The translations under genes and the position numbers were made by a program. DNA of 29,654 nucleotides from a virus. The stretch's first letter is position 1, and each line of letters opens with the position of its first letter. The notes below the pieces were generated by a model. It saw only the letters and a list, made by a program, of their open reading frames with translations, was not told where the DNA came from and did not search any database. Positions 1,595-29,092 of this stretch are shown piece after piece. The stretch is taken from IMG/VR virus record IMGVR_UViG_3300013103_000040, positions 1 through 29,654 of that record; one strand, given 5' to 3'.

Positions 1595-2312
1595 AAAAGA
1601 ATTTAGTAAAATACTAAATGGACGAATCAGAACTTGCAAAAATATCCTTGAGCATAAAGCAGATGTATACGCTGCTGGTTCTGATAGGTTAAGCAACTTT
1701 AAAGATGCCGGGAGATTGCTGAGTTGTACACCTGAGCGAGCATTGCAGGGTTTCATGACCAAGCACATTGTAGCACTGAATGACTTTATTGCCCAGCTTG
1801 ATAATAGCATTGTCAGCCCACTCGCTGAATGGGAAGAGAAGATAGGTGATATTATCAACTATCTTATTTTACTGGAAGCTTTAGTTAAAGAGAAGCATCC
1901 CGAAATTAATTTCAGTTGCGGCCGCACACCGGCCGCTGGACCGGCACCAACCAAGAAGTCACCAAAGAAAACACTCCAGTCACCCGACAGTCCCACGGGG
2001 AACTCACTTGTAACAACAGTACTAACCGGCGACCCGGAACTCCCCGGCATGTCCCAGGAAGTTCCCGGAGCACGTAGTGGTAAACACTGGAAAGACGCTA
2101 TTGAACCACCTGCAGCAGGAACGAAAGTGCGGATTACTGACATAGGAATTAATGATGGTTTCTATAAGGATCGAAGTGAGTTTATTGGTTTAGAAGGAGT
2201 TGTTGTACATGTGGCCTTTGATGATAGTACCGGCTGGTTCTATGGCGAGTTAATGATTGAAGGAAAAGGTGGTATAGTATTTGCTGAAGTAAAACTGCAA
2301 ATTCAGGTGTAA
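1587..2312 (+). CDS. Nucleotide-modification-associated (Nmad1/MazG-like) domain protein with inserted linker
   Basis: This 241-residue protein has three parts. Residues 1-105 are an all-helical domain with RLSNFKDAGRLL, AKHI-type (TKHIVAL) and EKIGDIINYLILLEAL segments. These resemble phage Nmad1/DUF1599 or MazG-type proteins, where the E-x3-D helix helps bind metal and a nucleotide. Residues 107-163 are a Pro/Ser/Gly/Lys-rich linker encoded exactly by GC-rich element A. Residues ~175-241 look like a small SH3-like beta-barrel (GTKVRI, GLEGVVVHV, GWFYGELMIEG). The start is set by AAGGAGAAAAG before the ATG. If active, it would act on a free nucleotide pool, but no catalytic assignment is secure. 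Confidence 0.6.
   Translation: MNRKEFSKILNGRIRTCKNILEHKADVYAAGSDRLSNFKDAGRLLSCTPERALQGFMTKHIVALNDFIAQLDNSIVSPLAEWEEKIGDIINYLILLEALVKEKHPEINFSCGRTPAAGPAPTKKSPKKTLQSPDSPTGNSLVTTVLTGDPELPGMSQEVPGARSGKHWKDAIEPPAAGTKVRITDIGINDGFYKDRSEFIGLEGVVVHVAFDDSTGWFYGELMIEGKGGIVFAEVKLQIQV
1905..2075 (+). repeat. GC-rich hairpin element, copy A
   Basis: This copy lies inside the preceding gene. It starts with ATTAAT (1905-1910), then a perfect hairpin GCGGCCG-CACAC-CGGCCGC (1918-1936), then TGGACCGGCAC, a spacer, CACTTGTAA, ACCGGC, and a distal inverted repeat GGAACT...AGTTCC. The same order occurs in copy B (19714-19876), and most of it occurs on the opposite strand in copy C (3583-3705). The GC-rich composition contrasts sharply with the flanking AT-rich coding DNA. 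Confidence 0.7.
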
Positions 2313-2824: not shown

Positions 2825-2829
2825 AGTTT

Positions 2830-2844
2830 GGTCAAAATTTGACC
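2830..2844. promoter_or_regulatory. Palindromic site 1
   Basis: GGTCAAAATTTGACC is a perfect inverted repeat with 7-base arms around one central base. It lies five bases after a stop codon and directly upstream of the ribosome site of the next gene. The same 15-bp pattern recurs at 11665, 19903 and 28565. The flank GATCTTCTGGAAGG also resembles that of site 2. It may be a protein operator or an RNA stem. No U-run follows it. Confidence 0.6.
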
Positions 2845-2866
2845 GATCTTCTGGAAGGAGAATAAG

Positions 2867-3507: not shown

Positions 3508-3718
3508 TGATATGAATGCTAAGGTCGCTGAGGCAAGCCCGTACACTGACACTCGGTTTATGTCCTGCTATAATGGTGTGGTGTGCCGGTTAGATCTGTC
3601 TTGTAAGTGCTTTTTCCAGCCGGGAACTGTGGAATTGCTCTGGACGGTAGCCGGCCTTGTGCCGCCGTGGACCAGGCGGGGGTGTGCCCCGCCTATAATA
3701 TTAATTTACAAAGTCTGA
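3497..3718 (+). CDS. Uncertain small ORF overlapping repeat C and a promoter
   Basis: The ORF (73 residues; start at 3497 or 3500 after GAGGAG) begins with a plausible polar segment, MSNDMNAKVAEASPYTDTR. From about residue 29 the codons come from GC-rich element C. A strong promoter also lies inside it at 3546-3574. The Cys/Trp/Pro-rich C-terminal part therefore looks like read-through of a structured non-coding element, not an evolved protein. The gene may be real but truncated or extended by the element, or not a gene at all. Confidence 0.35.
   Translation: MMSNDMNAKVAEASPYTDTRFMSCYNGVVCRLDLSCKCFFQPGTVELLWTVAGLVPPWTRRGCAPPIILIYKV
3546..3574 (+). promoter_or_regulatory. Sigma70-like promoter with extended -10
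   Basis: CTGACA (3546-3551, five of six to TTGACA), a 17-base spacer and a perfect TATAAT (3569-3574), with TGC just before the -10, form an extended -10 promoter. Transcription would start around 3581, at the edge of element C, and would run into its hairpin at 3674-3694 and possibly on to the gene at 3881. Confidence 0.6.
3583..3705 (-). repeat. GC-rich hairpin element, copy C
   Basis: Read on the - strand it starts with ATTAAT (3705-3700), then hairpin AGGCGGGG-CACAC-CCCCGCCT (3694-3674), then GGTCCACGG, and further on CACTT and AACCGGCAC. This is the block order of copies A and B. The loop CACAC is identical to copy A although the stem is different. It lacks the distal GAACT/AGTTC inverted repeat. 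On the + strand it begins where transcription from the 3546-3574 promoter should start and ends at the hairpin, so it could also encode an RNA of about 115 bases. Confidence 0.65.
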
Positions 3719-4351: not shown

Positions 4352-4384
4352 AGGCTGGAGGGTTAGCCCTCCAGTCTATATTTT
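4352..4384 (+). terminator. Intrinsic terminator
   Basis: A stem CTGGAGGG (4355-4362), loop TTAG and CCCTCCAG (4367-4374), extended by AGG/TCT pairs, is followed by TATATTTT. It lies 30-odd bases after the 145-residue gene and would end its transcript. Confidence 0.8.
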
Positions 4385-5337: not shown

Positions 5338-6063
5338 ATGAATGCTAAAGAGTATAATATTGAAACTGGTTACTTGAATGTGCTAGTTGTTGGTTCGTAC
5401 GGGACAGGTAAAAGTACGTTCTTTGCTACATTTCCTACACCAGGCTATTTGTTTGACTTTGATAATCAAGTAGCAGTATATCGAGGAAATGATTTTGACT
5501 ATAGTCAATATCAGCTTAGTCCTGCTGGTTGGGCAAAGTTTGAAGCGGACTTTCGTAAGGTGAAAGAAGCATGTAAGGAAGGTAAGTATAAAACTATCAT
5601 ATTTGATAGTGCTACTGGTATGATTGCACTGGCCATGGAAAGAGCTTTATCTCTTGACCCTAAACGTAGTCCAACTGGAGGACCACTCTGGAACGTACAT
5701 TATCAGATGGTTAAAAACTTGGTTGAGGGAAAGATCAGACAGCTACTCAGCTTGCCGCAGTCAAATCATCTACTTGCCTGTCACCTGAAAATTACACAAG
5801 ATATGGAAACTGGCGCAGTAATTTCAATTGATCCAAGTCTTACAGGACAACTTGTAAATGATGTGCCTGCTATGTTTGGTGAAGTGTATATTGCAAAGAC
5901 AAAACAGAAAGGAGGAAAAACACAGTATAAGCTACAAACTGTAACACGAGGTCATTTCAAAGCTCGATCAAATCTGAGTGGAAAGGTACATTTGTTACCT
6001 GATGAAATGGAAAACGACTATCCAACAATTATGAGTACACTGAAGGAGAAGGATAATGAGTGA
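5338..6063 (+). CDS. RecA-like ATPase, Sak4 type
   Basis: This 241-residue RecA-fold NTPase carries Walker A GSYGTGKS (19-26) and a Walker B strand KTIIFD ending at D90, followed by SATG. The length and the lack of a DnaB- or RadA-type extra domain fit the phage Sak4/AAA_24 group, which promotes single-strand annealing and acts with a phage ssDNA-binding protein. That partner type is encoded immediately downstream with an eight-base overlap, and a nuclease lies upstream, which strengthens the assignment. The C-terminal ~60 residues include a lysine-rich loop (KTKQKGGKTQ) that may contact DNA. Confidence 0.85.
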   Translation: MNAKEYNIETGYLNVLVVGSYGTGKSTFFATFPTPGYLFDFDNQVAVYRGNDFDYSQYQLSPAGWAKFEADFRKVKEACKEGKYKTIIFDSATGMIALAMERALSLDPKRSPTGGPLWNVHYQMVKNLVEGKIRQLLSLPQSNHLLACHLKITQDMETGAVISIDPSLTGQLVNDVPAMFGEVYIAKTKQKGGKTQYKLQTVTRGHFKARSNLSGKVHLLPDEMENDYPTIMSTLKEKDNE

Positions 6064-6550
6064 AGATTACGAAATGGATACTGACTTGGGTGGTATGGAT
6101 GCTCTCGATGCTGACTTTAACGTTGATGCTGATTACAAACCGACGCCTATAGTTTCACCTGGAAGCTATAGTGGAAATGTGACTGGTGTAAAACTTGACC
6201 CAAAGCATTCATGTATCGTCTGGGACGTGACTCTGGCAGACAATGAAGATGCCTACTGTAACGATGGTGAGACCAGTGTGAATGGTATCGGCCTGCAGTA
6301 TAGGAATTTTCTGCCGAAAGCGAATGACCGGAATGAGCTGAATAAAAAGGGTGTTACAAAGTTCCAGTCAAAGATTAACATGCTGCGGTATTTTAGCGAA
6401 GCAATGGGAATTAGTATGAATACGTTGCCTGACATTGTTGAAGCTATCGAGAATGGCGAGTGGATTGGGTTGGAAGTTACTGCAAAGGTTGTAGTTGACA
6501 GTTACCAAGGTAGAACTAACAACAAAATTGACCAGTTGGCTAAACGCTAG
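6056..6550 (+). CDS. ssDNA-binding protein, DUF669-like
   Basis: The 164-residue protein starts with an acidic tail (residues 1-28), followed by an OB-fold-like beta domain: PGSYSGNVTGVKLD, then WDVTLAD, and a final EWIGLEVTAKVVVDSYQGR strand pair with NKI. This is the pattern of DUF669 proteins, phage ssDNA-binding proteins linked to Sak-type recombinases. The gene overlaps the Sak4 gene by eight bases and ends 12 bases before a strong terminator. Its codon use is more GC-rich than that of its neighbours, consistent with a protein needed in many copies. Confidence 0.75.
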   Translation: MSEDYEMDTDLGGMDALDADFNVDADYKPTPIVSPGSYSGNVTGVKLDPKHSCIVWDVTLADNEDAYCNDGETSVNGIGLQYRNFLPKANDRNELNKKGVTKFQSKINMLRYFSEAMGISMNTLPDIVEAIENGEWIGLEVTAKVVVDSYQGRTNNKIDQLAKR

Positions 6551-8509: not shown

Positions 8510-8704
8510 ATGAAAGGTATAATTCTACACGACTGGTTCTATAAAGAAGTTCCAGTTGGTATACTAGATGCCATAGATCAACATGAGCCAGAAAAATTAA
8601 TACAAGCAGTTAAATGTACTAGTACTACTACAAGCATAACACCTAAATATAAAATACTTAGACAAGTAGTCCTACACACTAACATATCTAATAACGGAGA
8701 GTAA
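8510..8704 (+). CDS. Small protein, first of a paralogous pair (64 aa)
   Basis: This protein aligns almost end to end with the C-terminal two thirds of the next gene product. Shared blocks are DWFYKEV / DWFYREI, EPEKLIQAV / EPEKLIKAV and LHTNISNNGE / LYTNIVNKGE. The similarity is also visible in the DNA around 8530-8700 and 8750-8975, so it is a tandem duplication. No function is recognised. The ribosome site is weak and the start is two bases after the methyltransferase stop, suggesting coupling. Confidence 0.65.
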   Translation: MKGIILHDWFYKEVPVGILDAIDQHEPEKLIQAVKCTSTTTSITPKYKILRQVVLHTNISNNGE

Positions 8705-8705
8705 T

Positions 8706-8978
8706 ATGATAGTAATGGTCTGTAAATTAGATAATCCTGCAAGTCCATACGACTGGTTCTATCGGGAGATTTCAGTTACTATAGCTGATGATCTAAGTCG
8801 AATAGCAGGCTTTACTGCAAAAAATATCTGTATGGAAATTATTAGTACAAATGGTAGTGAACCAGAAAAACTGATAAAAGCAGTTCAAAATATTATTGCT
8901 ACCACAAACACAACACCAGTATATAGAATGCTTAAAAGATTAGTCCTATACACTAACATAGTTAATAAAGGAGAGTAA
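8706..8978 (+). CDS. Small protein, second of a paralogous pair (90 aa)
   Basis: This 90-residue paralogue of the preceding 64-residue protein differs by an extra N-terminal segment (MIVMVCKLDNPASP) and an inserted ~16-residue stretch after the DWFYREI block. It has a GGAGAG site and begins one base after the previous stop. Both ends of the pair carry nearly the same junction sequence (AATAA[A/C]GGAGAGTAA), as expected from duplication of gene plus ribosome site. The function is unknown. Confidence 0.65.
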   Translation: MIVMVCKLDNPASPYDWFYREISVTIADDLSRIAGFTAKNICMEIISTNGSEPEKLIKAVQNIIATTNTTPVYRMLKRLVLYTNIVNKGE

Positions 8979-9279: not shown

Positions 9280-11661
9280 ATGTTAGTTAAGACTGTTGGA
9301 CCTGAATACGCTAATATTATGATAGTAGGTGAGGCGCCGGGAGAACAGGAGGATGCTCAGGGTATTCCATTTGTAGGACAGAGTGGTCAACTGCTAGATA
9401 AAATTCTGGGTCAGGCACAGCTCAGTAAACATGAGTGCATACTAACCAATGTAGCTAAGATCAGACCACCTGGGAATCAAATTGGATATTACTTTGAAAA
9501 TAAAGCCAAAACTATTCCTAAACCTGTATTAGCTGAGCATATTGAAATGCTTCGCCAAGATATCCTCAGCTATAAACCTAATATTATTATAGCACTTGGA
9601 CGTACTGCCCTATGGGCACTTACTGGGCAGCCAGCTATATCAACTGCCCGTGGTTTTATTACTGAAAGTACACTAGTTCCTGGTGTAAAGGTGCTGCCAA
9701 CATATCATCCAAGGTATGTAACAGAGAACTGGGAAATGTTATTTCCTGTTATCATGGATATTAGGAAGGCTGTTGCTAATAGTCATAAGCCAGATCTAGT
9801 ACGAGACACAAGGGTGCTTATGTCCTCACCAACTAAGGGTGAGTTTATGGACTTCCTTAGGCATGCTGAAACATGCGAGAAAATTGCTGTAGATATTGAA
9901 ACTACATCCCCTGGTAGTCATATTGATATTCTAGGAATTGCAACGTCACCTAACGAAGCAATGTCATTTACTTTTATCCGTAATCGTAAGCCTAGATTTA
10001 GTAATCCAAGAGATGAAGTTGATATATGGGCTGCAGTTGCTCGGGTACTAAATACTGTTCCAACTATTATGCACAATGGTACATACGACTCAGCAGTACT
10101 AACACTTAACCATGGTATCTTTTGTAGGGGATATAAAGATGATACTATGGTTGCTGCACATGTCTGCTGGCCAGAAGTACCTAGAAGTCTTAGCTTTTTG
10201 TCAAGTGTTTGTATTAATGTCCCATCATGGAAACATCTGCAAACAACAATGCCAGCATGGTACAATGCGTCTGACGCTGCTAATACCTTTGGTGTCTATG
10301 AGGTTATATGGAAAGAGATACTACATGGTGGGCATCTGCCAACGTATCAGTTTGAAATGGCACAGGTTGAGGTTGCTAACTACTTACATCTTAAAGGTGT
10401 GAAGGTTGATCGTGATGTGCAGGCACGGTTAATTGCTGAAAATATTAGTGCAACTAAAAAATCTGGCACTACACTAGCTGAGGCTTTTGGTCATGAGATT
10501 AATTTTAACTCACCTAAACAAATGGCACAGTTACTATATAATGATCTAGGATTACCGCCACAGTATAAACGACGAAAGTCTGTTAGTGAGCCACGTAAAG
10601 TTACAACAGACAAAGAAGCTATTATTAGACTATCAAGAATGAGTGATAATCCACTGCTTGACTTGATAGTACAGCATAAAAAAGAGATTAAATTAAAATC
10701 ATTTCTTGACATTGAATTATCACCTACTGGCAGAGTACATACTAACTATAATATCACTGGCGCAACGATGGCACACCAGAAGAAAGCGATTGTTATAGAT
10801 GATGATGAGAACTATAAGTCGTTTGGTAGGTGGTCATCAAGTAAATCTATTATACTACCGTATGGTAGCGGTAACTTACAGAATATTCCACGGGTTGCTC
10901 GTGAGATGTATGTACCAGATGCTGGTTGTTGGTTTGTGCAGGCAGATTATAAGCAGGCTGAAGCTGTTATTGTTGCCTATATTATTGGTGATGAAAAGTT
11001 GAAGGATATGTTTAAGCAGTCCTTTGGTAAGTCTACTAAGTACTGTGCAGATAATAATCTAGATGTTCACAAGATTACAGCAGCTATGATGTTTGGAATA
11101 CCAGTAGACGAGGTAACACCTACCCAGCGTAAGGTTGGAAAGACAATACGTCACGCAACTTCTTACTCAGCAGGACCTAAGGTTGTTGCTGATAAACTCG
11201 GTGTTCCACTAAAAATAGCTAAACAACATCTAAATCAATATCTTGCAGCATCACCACAACTTCAAATCTGGCATAAACGTATTCAAGAAGAACTGGCATC
11301 AACCAGAATTTTAACTAATCTGTTTGGACGAAAGCATAAGTTTTTAAAGAAGTGGGGTGACTCACTATTTAGAAGTGCATACTCGTATATTCCACAGTCT
11401 ACTGTTGGTGAACTACTAAACAGAGCGATGGTAACGTATGCTGAGAAGTATAATACACAGTATCCACTATGCCTACAGCTACACGATGCTATGTACGTAG
11501 CTAGTCCACCGGATGCAGTTAACCTACGAGCTGCGAAGCATGCACTATATGAGTGTATGATGATACCAATCACCTATAAGGAGGAAACATTCTGTGTTGA
11601 TGTAGACTTCAAGGTTGGTCCTAACTGGAAAGACCTAACTGAAACAGATTTGGATTCATAG
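9280..11661 (+). CDS. Uracil-DNA-glycosylase / family A DNA polymerase fusion
   Basis: The 793-residue replicative polymerase has three parts. Residues 1-170 are a family 4-type uracil-DNA glycosylase domain: GEAPGEQED (17-25), FVGQSGQLLD, NVAKIRPPGNQ and HPRYV. The Cys ligands of the Fe-S cluster found in free family 4 enzymes are not present. Residues ~195-350 are a DEDD 3'-5' exonuclease (D205/E207, N266/D270, YxxxD 328-332). Residues ~365-793 are the polymerase: motif A DYKQAE (D556, E561), motif B R617-K621-Y629, motif C HDA (H735-D736-A737). Phage SPO1 polymerase also carries a UDG-like N-terminus. Motif C HDA replaces HDE, and position 625 is His. AAAGGAG sets the start. Confidence 0.9.
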   Translation: MLVKTVGPEYANIMIVGEAPGEQEDAQGIPFVGQSGQLLDKILGQAQLSKHECILTNVAKIRPPGNQIGYYFENKAKTIPKPVLAEHIEMLRQDILSYKPNIIIALGRTALWALTGQPAISTARGFITESTLVPGVKVLPTYHPRYVTENWEMLFPVIMDIRKAVANSHKPDLVRDTRVLMSSPTKGEFMDFLRHAETCEKIAVDIETTSPGSHIDILGIATSPNEAMSFTFIRNRKPRFSNPRDEVDIWAAVARVLNTVPTIMHNGTYDSAVLTLNHGIFCRGYKDDTMVAAHVCWPEVPRSLSFLSSVCINVPSWKHLQTTMPAWYNASDAANTFGVYEVIWKEILHGGHLPTYQFEMAQVEVANYLHLKGVKVDRDVQARLIAENISATKKSGTTLAEAFGHEINFNSPKQMAQLLYNDLGLPPQYKRRKSVSEPRKVTTDKEAIIRLSRMSDNPLLDLIVQHKKEIKLKSFLDIELSPTGRVHTNYNITGATMAHQKKAIVIDDDENYKSFGRWSSSKSIILPYGSGNLQNIPRVAREMYVPDAGCWFVQADYKQAEAVIVAYIIGDEKLKDMFKQSFGKSTKYCADNNLDVHKITAAMMFGIPVDEVTPTQRKVGKTIRHATSYSAGPKVVADKLGVPLKIAKQHLNQYLAASPQLQIWHKRIQEELASTRILTNLFGRKHKFLKKWGDSLFRSAYSYIPQSTVGELLNRAMVTYAEKYNTQYPLCLQLHDAMYVASPPDAVNLRAAKHALYECMMIPITYKEETFCVDVDFKVGPNWKDLTETDLDS

Positions 11662-11664
11662 TTC

Positions 11665-11679
11665 GGTCAAATATTGACC
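11665..11679. promoter_or_regulatory. Palindromic site 2
   Basis: GGTCAAATATTGACC has 6-base perfect arms and starts three bases after the polymerase stop codon. The flanks TTC before and AATCTTCTGGAGG after closely match those of site 1 and, in part, of site 4. The following GGAGG is the ribosome site of the DUF3987 gene, so a protein or RNA stem here could affect its expression. Confidence 0.6.
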
Positions 11680-11696
11680 AATCTTCTGGAGGCTAT

Positions 11697-19158: not shown

Positions 19159-19698
19159 CTATCTCCCAGGAAGTGCAACTGAATTATTAAGTCCTAACAG
19201 ATCATCTTTTTTCCTTTTTCGAACTATACCTGGTATATTAGATTGTGCAGTAACTGTGTCACCAGGCTGCCATACAGGGGCAGGTTTGTCTCTGCCAGCA
19301 GCAGCTTGCTGTTCTAGCATCTCTGGTAAATAGACACTAGCAAGTGCTTTGTTCTTACTTGTTAAACTGGATTGAAACAGCTCTTCTTCACGTAACGCTG
19401 CACCCTCATCAAACTGCCTACCAAATTCTTTGGTTCTAGCATAGCTTGGACCAGCTGCTGTTACGGCAGCCCGTTCTCTAGAAGCTCCCTGCTCTTTAGT
19501 AGAAGCTAACTGTCCAGCATTTGCAAGCTTTTGCTGCTGAATTTGAGTAGCCATTCTTAAATTAATACGAGCTAATTCATCTGCTGACTGCTCCTCGTAA
19601 GTACCTTTCATTTCACGCTCATTCTTTCTACGCGCTTTCAGTAATCTTGCTGCACGTTCTGGACTATTATACTTAATCTGTGCCCAACTTTGTCCCAT
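19159..19698 (-). CDS. Small helical virion protein, 179 aa (ejection-complex candidate)
   Basis: Almost entirely charged helix up to about residue 140 (LLKARRKNEREMKGTYEEQS, ARINLRMATQIQQQKLANAG), with no membrane segment, followed by a Pro-rich tail (KPAPVWQPGDTV) and a basic end. Two bases separate it from the 1352-residue gene, and the pair resembles the small-plus-large internal protein arrangement of podoviruses. It starts after a GGGGGGAG site, just downstream of GC-rich element B, so its 5' untranslated region may contain that element's hairpin. Confidence 0.55.
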   Translation of the reverse strand: MGQSWAQIKYNSPERAARLLKARRKNEREMKGTYEEQSADELARINLRMATQIQQQKLANAGQLASTKEQGASRERAAVTAAGPSYARTKEFGRQFDEGAALREEELFQSSLTSKNKALASVYLPEMLEQQAAAGRDKPAPVWQPGDTVTAQSNIPGIVRKRKKDDLLGLNNSVALPGR

Positions 19699-19713
19699 AA
19701 CTTACTCCCCCCT

Positions 19714-19876
19714 ATTAATCTCAGTTGCGGTGCCAAAGCACCGCTGGTCCACGGCACACAAAGTACCCAATAATATTCACACTCCCGGAGTGCCAACTCA
19801 CCCGGAAGTCACTTGTAAATAATAACATTACCGGCACGCCCGAACTCCACGGATTTGTGCAGTTCCCGGCACGCCC
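19714..19876 (+). repeat. GC-rich hairpin element, copy B
   Basis: This copy fills most of the 222-base gap between two late genes. On the + strand it has ATTAAT (19714-19719), TCAGTT, hairpin GCGGTGC-CAAA-GCACCGC (19727-19744), TGGTCCACGGCAC, a small CACTC-CCG-GAGTG hairpin, CACTTGTAA, ACCGGCAC and GAACT...AGTTCCCGGCACG. The order and spacing match copy A; the distance from CACTT to ACCGGC is 15 bases in both. The late genes are transcribed in the opposite direction. No ORF is supported here. Confidence 0.75.
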
Positions 19877-19902
19877 CACACTAGCGGTATTTAAAGAACA
19901 TT

Positions 19903-19917
19903 GGTCAAATTGTGACC
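19903..19917. promoter_or_regulatory. Palindromic site 3
   Basis: GGTCAAATTGTGACC lies three bases beyond the stop codon of the 803-residue gene (TAG-TTC-site on the - strand, exactly as at site 2 on the + strand). Its arms are five perfect bases, with partial pairing inside. It is followed by element B and then by the 179-residue gene. Confidence 0.6.
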
Positions 19918-19920
19918 GAA

Positions 19921-22332
19921 CTATACAATTCCCATATCCAGTAGTTGTGTTGGATCAGTGATATTAGCAAGGCTAAATACTGCAGCTGTTATATCAGTAT
20001 GTACACCAGCAATAACAAGATCTATTGTCCAACCAAGTAGTATATCATAATTATCATCTTCTGGATCAACTTGTCCATGACCTACAAAGACTAATGCTGT
20101 ATTATCAATAGCACGATTATCCAGAAATGCGTATGCAAAGTTATAATTTTCCCAAAATAGCTTGTTACCCTCCCACACTCTAGGATATTCTTTAGTATGT
20201 GTTTCAAAATATACAATCGTAGCATCAAAGACTGTCTCATTTGGCTCAATCCAACGCTTTTCAACTGAGCCATTTGTATCCATAATCAACTGGATATTCG
20301 CATGTACATCTGTCGTTCTTGACCCCCAATCAGTACTTTCTGGTCCATGTATTCTACTTACCATGTCAGCAACAGAGTCTGGGGGGTTACCTGCGTATGT
20401 CATAGCTACAGTCATAAACTCTGAGTCAACATCATCCATATCTCCGTGTAATGTTACAGAATTACTAGGTATACCAACAAATTCTACTATAACACAAACT
20501 GAATATTTATCATTAAGCCAAGCATAACTGTCATAACATCCAGTAGGACAACCTCCAGGATATGGGCAAAAGCCATGTGTATGGTCTAAAATTGGCTCTG
20601 GATACTCAGCTATTTCTGTACTAAAAGCTATCTCGCACTCATCATACCAATAGCTTGGTGGTTCGCTTGTCCATTCAGAACCGCTAACTAAAGATCCAGG
20701 ACCACCATCAGCTATTCTTTTAGCATAGTCTTCCGGACTGAAGCAAATTCCACCAGCCCAAATTGCAAATCCCGATGAATGCCAGCCAAACTGCTCACCC
20801 ACGTGCATATTATATGTATGTGCTGGTGAATACCCACGTGCCTCTTTAATATATGAACAAAGATCGACAGTATTTAGTGAAAATGCGTTACTTCCAAGTT
20901 TTGCTGGTTCCCACCTATGCGTATGCCGTGCATCTCCAGCCAAGACCCAGCCATGATCAAACACTGGAGTTGGTACCTCGTTTATCATAACAATGTTGTA
21001 AGTGTACGCATTAGCTATGTGTCTTCTAGCAAATAGTGCAATACTAGTAGTAAAAGTGACGCTTGTTTCTTGTACTAGTGAATACGAATCTTCTGTAAGA
21101 TCATCAACATCATCTGTAGTACTATCAGCTAAAACAACTGCCCCAGCATTGTTAGAATCATATATTCCCCATACAAGGTCAGTAAACCCAAATGATCTAG
21201 CTCCAGCTGTTTGTACGCCTGCAGAATTAAAAGTCATTTGTATATAACTACCAGAACCACAGCCATAATCTTCGTAGTCATGACTTCCGCATAAACTACC
21301 TAAACCGTGCTCTGCCTTAGCAATAATTGTTATTGAAGTAGTTGTAACGTCAGCAATATGATCAATATATGCTGGTGGTCGTAAGTATCCAAGAACGTTT
21401 CCAGGTGTTGGTCCATCACAAAAAATATCACTCTCTACCGTACCTAGAATATCTAGGTAGTCAAAGTACTTAAATTCATATAGTTGATTGACGCCGCTAG
21501 CAGTAATATCAACAACCTTCACAGTTAAGTTTACCCAGTCTGGATAACCAGCTTCCGCTTCATGCTCCATACCAAACCATACAAATAACCCATTAAGTAT
21601 ATGGAACTGGTGATACTTCCTTTTTAATGCCACATGACTACTAAATTGATCGAATATATTTGCTGACATTGGATCAAATGCAGTACGTAGTATTCCAGAA
21701 CAGTAGCCTACATACACAGTATCATCTACAGTGAATGTTTTTGCTTCCCTAAAACTAGTACGACCCCACGCTGCATCACCGTCAGGCCAATCTGGACTTT
21801 CAGGAAAACGTGACTGTAACGATTCAACAGATGTACTCATAAGTCCTATTGTTATACCATTTACAATTGTTGTCACAATACCAGCATCATCTAATGCTGC
21901 ACTAGTAGCTTGTTCAATAACATCTACTGGGGTGCCAGGATCTGCGATAATAACTTCATCAATATAGTCAGAATAATTTCCGTCAAAGTCAGGCATTAAG
22001 TAGTAAAACTTATGTCCATTTTGGTTATGATACCCAGCAAAATCTGGATCAGCAACTTCTATATAATACTGTGCTCTTACCGTAATAAAAACTTCTACGT
22101 GGTAATATTTCCGCAGATCTTCGTATGATGGACTGTATATAGTAACAACATTATACCCAAACACTGTGGTACATGTAACTTTTGTGCCGTCAGCGAAATT
22201 AAGAGTTCGACGACCTTGCTTAAGCTGTTGACGATTAATATCATCCTGCAACCACTGTAAAACTCTAGTACCAGTTCCAACTAGTGTACGTGCCCTTAGA
22301 GCATTTCCAGTATAGTTAAAGCGTGTTGCCAT
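19921..22332 (-). CDS. Large structural (tail/fibre) protein, 803 aa
   Basis: The composition is beta-rich, with many Tyr, Asp, Thr and Gly, and no membrane segment, typical of a tail or fibre protein. It is also Cys-containing: a cluster near residues 585-600 (FCPYPGGCPTGC), GSLCGSHDYEDYGCGSG near 365-380, and single Cys elsewhere. The His-rich patch DHTHGFCPYP could bind metal. No family is recognised. It starts at the stop of the 636-residue gene with only a weak ribosome site, suggesting coupling, and it ends just before palindrome 3. A virion role is inferred from position and composition. Confidence 0.6.
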   Translation of the reverse strand: MATRFNYTGNALRARTLVGTGTRVLQWLQDDINRQQLKQGRRTLNFADGTKVTCTTVFGYNVVTIYSPSYEDLRKYYHVEVFITVRAQYYIEVADPDFAGYHNQNGHKFYYLMPDFDGNYSDYIDEVIIADPGTPVDVIEQATSAALDDAGIVTTIVNGITIGLMSTSVESLQSRFPESPDWPDGDAAWGRTSFREAKTFTVDDTVYVGYCSGILRTAFDPMSANIFDQFSSHVALKRKYHQFHILNGLFVWFGMEHEAEAGYPDWVNLTVKVVDITASGVNQLYEFKYFDYLDILGTVESDIFCDGPTPGNVLGYLRPPAYIDHIADVTTTSITIIAKAEHGLGSLCGSHDYEDYGCGSGSYIQMTFNSAGVQTAGARSFGFTDLVWGIYDSNNAGAVVLADSTTDDVDDLTEDSYSLVQETSVTFTTSIALFARRHIANAYTYNIVMINEVPTPVFDHGWVLAGDARHTHRWEPAKLGSNAFSLNTVDLCSYIKEARGYSPAHTYNMHVGEQFGWHSSGFAIWAGGICFSPEDYAKRIADGGPGSLVSGSEWTSEPPSYWYDECEIAFSTEIAEYPEPILDHTHGFCPYPGGCPTGCYDSYAWLNDKYSVCVIVEFVGIPSNSVTLHGDMDDVDSEFMTVAMTYAGNPPDSVADMVSRIHGPESTDWGSRTTDVHANIQLIMDTNGSVEKRWIEPNETVFDATIVYFETHTKEYPRVWEGNKLFWENYNFAYAFLDNRAIDNTALVFVGHGQVDPEDDNYDILLGWTIDLVIAGVHTDITAAVFSLANITDPTQLLDMGIV

Positions 22333-28533: not shown

Positions 28534-28564
28534 AATAGAACTCCCACAATACCAAACACAGTTC

Positions 28565-28579
28565 GGTCAGAAATTGACC
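28565..28579. promoter_or_regulatory. Palindromic site 4
   Basis: GGTCAGAAATTGACC lies three bases beyond the stop of the 169-residue gene (- strand), in the gap before the adaptor gene. Its flanks on the + strand, GTTC before and AATCT after, match those of site 2, so relative to transcription it is inverted compared with sites 2 and 3. The arms are five perfect bases. Confidence 0.55.
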
Positions 28580-28582
28580 AAT

Positions 28583-29092
28583 CTACTGCATTGGAATACG
28601 ACTTACAAGCATATGCAATCTGGCTGCACCGGCAGTAATTACATCGTCACTGGTAAGTGCTGCATAGACAACAGGTACGTCAGCATCAGCACAGACAATA
28701 ACATTAGGTTCATGTGTACCTGCAGCTAGTGCTGTAACAAAAGCACTCCCATCTGGAAAGTCAAGGCCAGTAGCACCAATACCACTATCAGCCAGATCTT
28801 CAAAGTAGAAGTTAGCATCAACCGCTGTAACAGTCGCACCATCAACTGAAGTTTCCAGGGGAATAGTACCAGTTCCAACTGTAATTGCAATAGTACCACC
28901 AGCAAAAGCAATGATAGTTTCCATGCAAACAGACTGAACCAGGTATACACTATCACCGTACGCAGCAGGAAATGAAAAGAAAACTGCCTCAAGATCGTCA
29001 GCAGCTGGCGTCAGTACAGCAGACGTCAACCAGAACGGATTCTCAAGAACATTGGTTCGTGCGTCCTGACGACGCAAGTCAAGCATACCCAT
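28583..29092 (-). CDS. Small beta-rich virion protein, 169 aa
   Basis: The sequence alternates small hydrophobic and acidic residues (MGMLDLRRQDARTN, then AFAGGTIAITVGTGTIPLET, ATVTAVDANFYFED), typical of a beta-sandwich virion protein such as a decoration or head-fibre protein. It appears to share a fold with the next upstream 137-residue protein (both have a VQSVCMET/AWVNLITP strand followed by TGxITIGxxG). Located immediately after the capsid gene block. AAGGAG precedes the ATG. Identity not certain. Confidence 0.6.
   Translation of the reverse strand: MGMLDLRRQDARTNVLENPFWLTSAVLTPAADDLEAVFFSFPAAYGDSVYLVQSVCMETIIAFAGGTIAITVGTGTIPLETSVDGATVTAVDANFYFEDLADSGIGATGLDFPDGSAFVTALAAGTHEPNVIVCADADVPVVYAALTSDDVITAGAARLHMLVSRIPMQ

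Follow-up and report, generated by a model that had tools for sequence, protein, structure and literature searches.

The stretch of DNA analysed in this study (hereafter the window; G000) is a 29.7-kb virus fragment, 29,654 nucleotides in full, in which the plus strand encodes a ligase, an exonuclease, a Sak4-like annealing protein, a DNA polymerase, and a primase, and the minus strand carries the genes beyond 13 kb. A relative, G001 (IMGVR_UViG_3300016457_000027; 47.5 kb), whose DNA is about 85% identical to that of the window, encodes a P22-like portal and a phage capsid. No tRNA or tmRNA was found. Two adjacent small genes at 8510-8978 (64 and 90 aa) have a 126-nt repeat in common at 79%, which represents a tandem duplication. 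The tetramer CGCG occurs twice in the window against 53 expected and 6 times in G001 against 85 expected, and GGCC is also scarce in the window; this scarcity looks like restriction-site avoidance.

The window contains three GC-rich elements that are homologous to one another, namely, A (1905-2075), B (3705-3570, minus), and C (19714-19884), and that share the layout ATTAAT, gap, hairpin, TGGWCC/CGGC, CACTTRYAA, and ACCGGC. Each copy of the family is about 130-170 nt long, has a GC content of 53-58%, and is G+T-rich on its sense strand; the G+T-rich strand is the minus strand for A and C and the plus strand for B. Element A lies inside an ORF (1587-2312), directly 3′ of the part matching phrog_6802 (residues 1-106). 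The distal end of element B is a junction at which G001 carries about 1.2 kb extra, and element C fills the gap 5′ of a minus-strand gene (19698-19159).

A dispersed family of GC-rich elements

The pattern CACTTRYAAN{10,11}ACCGGCRM had exactly three matches in the window and none in 100 shuffles. The local alignment between A and C, which covers the whole length of both and contains non-triplet indels, was equalled by none of 2000 dinucleotide shuffles, and that between B and C, restricted to the hairpin half, by one of 2000. The A-B alignment alone was not significant (169/2000 dinucleotide shuffles). Four hairpins with seven or more perfect pairs and a GC content of 75% or higher were detected in the window, three of them being those of A, B, and C, and none in the shuffles; the fourth, at 4355-4374, is terminator-like. 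When a blind composition criterion (GC of at least 50% plus strong G+T asymmetry) was applied, A, B, and C accounted for 26 of the 28 flagged windows. These comparisons showed at the sequence level that A and C are homologous and that B is homologous to them by collinear blocks, and they confirmed the dispersed three-copy family proposed in the sequence-only reading. The positions given there were also correct, except that C extends to about 19884; the GAACT...AGTTCCCGG part, previously assigned to A and B, is actually common to A and C. In the window, B is cut off at this part, and its G001 copy runs further.

The search for further copies in related phages, which had been suggested earlier, extended the family. 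G001 contains orthologues of all three elements at orthologous loci (A2, B2, and C2) and a fourth copy, element D (approximately L013:11850-11997), which was detected with a profile of copies built without D (E 3e-12) and is likewise assigned to the family on its sequence. A terminase search for phage fragments of the same clade led to a third phage, G002 (L100), with a terminase 83% identical; with its probable copy, the family is spread over three related environmental podophages. By composition, the most extreme outlier in G002 is a leader, rich in G+T, that ends in GGCGGCG-GCATGTT-CGCCGCC-GACTGTAAACTGATT-GGAGGATATA-ATG, a diverged and probable fifth element whose G+T-rich strand is the sense strand, as at B2, C, and D. 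Because its alignment score against A was reached by 1 of 1000 shuffles but those against A2, B2, C, and D by 11-28 of 1000, we regard this copy as a probable rather than certain family member of modest homology; it was not recovered by the element profile. Strict and loose DNA patterns run against IMG/VR gave G001 and chance matches only, two patterns gave zero copies in GTDB genomes, and BLAST against annotated phages gave matches at chance level only. By the methods used, no copy was detectable in L015-L018, which have the same replication-gene order and polymerases 45-53% identical.

Hairpin pairing and nucleotide-level constraint

The terminal hairpins of A, B, and C are located at 1918-1936 (GCGGCCG-CACAC-CGGCCGC), 3674-3694 (AGGCGGGG-GTGTG-CCCCGCCT; GTATG in G001), and 19727-19744 (GCGGTGC-CAAA-GCACCGC; loop CAAC in G001), respectively. 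The four terminal stems of the family (GCGGCCG, GGCGGGG, GCGGTGC, and GCCGGGC) are paired at 27 of 28 positions, with the single mismatch in D, and the terminal hairpins use Watson-Crick pairs only. When the arms were permuted, the next best arrangement gave 25 pairs, and none of 200000 sets of random arms reached 27. Pairing is conserved over sequence in the terminal hairpin, as had been proposed; the stems do not differ completely, since A and C have the outer GCGG/CCGC in common. Between the window and its G001 orthologues, none of 44 stem positions and 3 of 14 loop positions changed, and every one of the three loops was altered. The loops of A and B were altered alike, from CACAC in the window to CATAC in both G001 copies, as if both were read by one factor; this parallel change consists of two events and is only suggestive.

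Outside the terminal hairpin, the folding evidence was mixed. The sense-strand consensus fold gave z values of -2.5, -2.0, and +0.4 against column shuffles for A, C, and B, respectively, and D and the G001 copies folded no better than shuffles. Substitutions preserved pairing more often than expected on the fold predicted for the window (P=0.005) but not on that predicted for G001 (P=0.6). RNAalifold found no common fold outside the hairpin region in all seven copies, which comprise three orthologous pairs and D; in the MAFFT alignment of the copies, the hairpin arm of B was misplaced. We therefore claim structure firmly for the terminal hairpin alone, and the earlier description of the elements as structured RNAs holds for this hairpin and not for the rest, where folding is weak or inconsistent.

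The elements are constrained at the nucleotide level. The window and G001 differ by 14%, 8%, and 6% in A, B, and C, respectively, and dS in genes is 0.40-0.88. The change was lower than at third codon positions of neighbouring coding sequence for A (P=0.005) and B (P=0.0005), and for C (P=0.0002) in a comparison with the third positions of its own gene. Codons 1-106 of the ORF around A have a dN of 0.085 and a dS of 0.65 (dN/dS 0.13), and the segment occupied by A has a dN of 0.143 and a dS of 0.132 (dN/dS about 1.1), with 9, 6, and 5 changes at the three codon positions. Because dS is low, dN/dS is about 1.1, and the changes are spread over all codon positions, sequence comparison indicates that this segment is conserved as nucleic acid and not as protein. 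This finding cautions that part of an annotated phage protein (1905-2075) may owe its conservation to the nucleic acid and not to the protein product.

That A is an ordinary linker in a protein, rich in proline and with a merely compositional likeness to B and C, is barely plausible. In favour of this reading, the frame through A is open in both phages. However, the A-C alignment with its non-triplet indels was unmatched in shuffles, the changes are even across codon positions, and dS is five times below the value in the same ORF, so that the comparison of orthologous loci refutes the linker reading as far as two genomes permit. Homologous proteins of other phages (L003-L005), which match the N-terminal domain, end about where A begins. 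Of the loci searched, the window and G001 alone have the C-terminal part behind A (2085-2312).

Conservation at the nucleic-acid level also argues against neutral selfish DNA. It is quite unlikely that the elements are relics of a small MITE- or REP-like mobile element that multiplied in an ancestor and was then fixed, although four homologous copies do occupy unrelated loci of one genome, one of them within an ORF at the point where the L003-L005 proteins end, and the sequence on either side of B occurs in one of these two phages but not in the other. Relative to G001, B in the window is flanked by two indels: one side lacks about 1.2 kb, and the indel on the opposite side involves a small gene of about 60 codons. 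Against this reading, the constraint is strong and not like that of dead insertions, and no empty/occupied pair was seen. The element ends are ATTAAT and approximately CACACT; comparison of the ends by eye showed neither the terminal inverted repeats nor the target-site duplications of a MITE, and none of the 25 longest inverted repeats listed joined them. No transposase-like match was obtained among the twenty-odd proteins searched from the two phages, about half of those encoded. The copies have diverged from one another (mean column identity 61-66%), which argues against recent transposition, and no sign of recent mobility was found. The suggestion of a small selfish element was thus not borne out, all window copies being orthologous and constrained in G001.

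Position before genes and proposed action

Read on the G+T-rich strand, the conserved blocks follow in the order GGGAACU..., GUGCCGGU, UUACAAGUG, GUGCCGUGGACCA, and terminal hairpin, with AACUGAGAUUAAU as an example of the tail behind it. The 3′ end of the element is arranged as 5′-GGWCCA, a GC-rich hairpin of 6-8 bp, a tail of ATTAAT or similar, a ribosome-binding site, and a start codon. At four of the five loci (C, B2, D, and the G002 copy, not A), the tail is followed by the ribosome-binding site and the start codon, the latter 25-45 nt 3′ of the hairpin, and at B2, C, and D the element makes up most of the intergenic gap. The tails were read as AATAGGGGGGAGTAAGTT, AATTATGGAGGTGGTA, and GATTGGAGGATATA. 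At C, the tail AACTGAGATTAAT, the ribosome-binding site AGGGGGGAG, and the start codon of the 179-aa gene behind it occupy 19689-19726 on the minus strand, with the ATG at 19698, 28 nt from the hairpin. About 400 kb of sequence, drawn from 14 phage genomes or genome fragments, was scanned for perfect GC hairpins with a ribosome-binding site and a start codon behind them. Apart from C, B2, C2, and the G002 copy, a single unrelated site was recovered; D was missed owing to its stem mismatch. The mixed orientation noted before accordingly applies to A, which lies on the opposite strand, and not to B (in G001), C, D, and the G002 copy, each of which precedes the next gene as a leader in the sense orientation. 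The gene that B precedes in G001 is missing from the window. Copy A does not fit this pattern; it may have been displaced or may act on an antisense transcript.

Sigma-70-like promoter matches were no more numerous than in shuffles. The best of the first 20 kb (3546-3574; 11/12, with TG before the -10) was formed at the indel junction just 5′ of B. A palindrome, AGTTCGGTCA-N5-TGACC, lies upstream of both C (19895-19924, minus strand), where it is a putative promoter or operator, and the G002 copy. The directional palindromic motif AGTTCGGTCA-N5-TGACCRATSTTCTGG occurs mostly shortly 5′ of gene starts, with 4 sites in the window (2825-2855, 11660-11690, 19895-19924, and 28560-28588), 10 in G001, 3 in G002, and 1 in L099, and is a candidate phage promoter, operator, or leader hairpin. 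Related phages carry palindromes of their own that are spelled differently (L017:12416-12456 and 6029-6069; L020:5067-5101 and 10794-10828), and that of L017 is directly 3′ of the polymerase gene, as in the window; these seem to represent a regulatory site changing along with its factor.

GC-rich hairpins in intergenic gaps might also be intrinsic or attenuating transcription terminators. The sequence disfavours this reading, which we consider very improbable: no T-run follows the terminal hairpins on either strand (tails AACTGAGATTAAT and TGGTCCACGG), and these hairpins are absent from the terminator scan output. A site at the DNA level is possible but doubtful. In that case, the blocks and the hairpin, perhaps as a cruciform or on single-stranded DNA, would serve replication, packaging, recombination, or a DNA-binding protein, and would be intergenic because the genes are otherwise tightly packed. 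This would accommodate the opposite-strand location of A within an ORF, the Watson-Crick-only hairpins, which are equally possible in DNA, the several CCGG tetramers per element, which GC content may explain, and the weakness of RNA-level structure beyond the hairpin. However, a DNA site would not require the same orientation immediately 5′ of start codons at four of five loci, and neither an origin nor a pac site would usually be present as four scattered copies.

This anatomy is compatible with a leader, or an intercistronic element, that would act on the gene behind it, in the simplest case as RNA. Because most copies lie directly 5′ of a gene's start signal, the elements are probably regulatory leaders rather than selfish DNA. 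We assign a probability of roughly 0.55 to the reading that they are cis-acting leaders, dispersed and constrained at the nucleotide level, that end in an RNA hairpin. Such an element would most likely act in the mRNA of the next gene, where the terminal hairpin and the upstream GUGCCGGU...UUACAAGUG...GUGCCGUGGACCA may bind a phage or host factor; alternatively, it may set mRNA processing or stability. The expected outcome would be tuned expression of the downstream gene. A bolder proposal, which we consider unlikely, is that the copies form a new class of phage leader RNA, in which dispersed copies with freely covarying stems and loops that change in step would let one trans-acting factor coordinate genes of the replication arm (B) and the structural arm (C and D). 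In compact phage genomes, dispersed elements that are associated with gene starts and constrained at the nucleotide level point to a rarely annotated layer of post-transcriptional control.

Comparison with known repeat families

No match near the gathering score was found in Rfam 15 for any copy tested, the best being SAM-III with 18.2 bits against a cut-off of 45. Repetitive extragenic palindromes (REPs) are 20-40 bp long, carry a GTAG or CGTC tag, and occur in many copies, the GTAG class often together with RAYT transposases (PMC3733652). Like REPs, the elements described here are GC-rich hairpins between genes and sometimes within genes; unlike REPs, they are few, lack the GTAG/CGTC tag, and are accompanied by no RAYT detected among the approximately half of the window and G001 proteins searched.

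The SAS/ESAS of Cluster K mycobacteriophages are dispersed repeats located 5′ of translation starts in a subset of genes, and ESAS consist of imperfect 17-bp inverted repeats linked to the 13-bp GGGATAGGAGCCC repeat; they are conserved with the gene behind them, their consensus varies among subclusters, and their function is unknown (PMC3203893). The present elements similarly lie immediately 5′ of translation starts at C, B2, D, and the G002 copy, though not at A, and have an inverted repeat there. They differ from ESAS in their length of 130-170 nt, in a stem that covaries between copies of one genome, in their G+T-rich strand, and in belonging to another phage group. The 13-bp repeat at the ribosome-binding site was absent from the tails read directly.

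Promoter-early stem-loops (PeSLs) of T4-type phages are dispersed stem-loops at gene boundaries that are associated with early promoters. The elements resemble PeSLs in being dispersed stem-loops at gene boundaries and in the gain or loss of a gene beside B. No early promoter or terminator tail was found in the elements themselves, although the palindrome upstream of C and of the G002 copy may be a promoter; the portal is P22-like, and the phage is not T4-type. We regard the elements as a new family of a known kind, closest to the start-associated ESAS repeats and to the PeSLs of T4-type phages.
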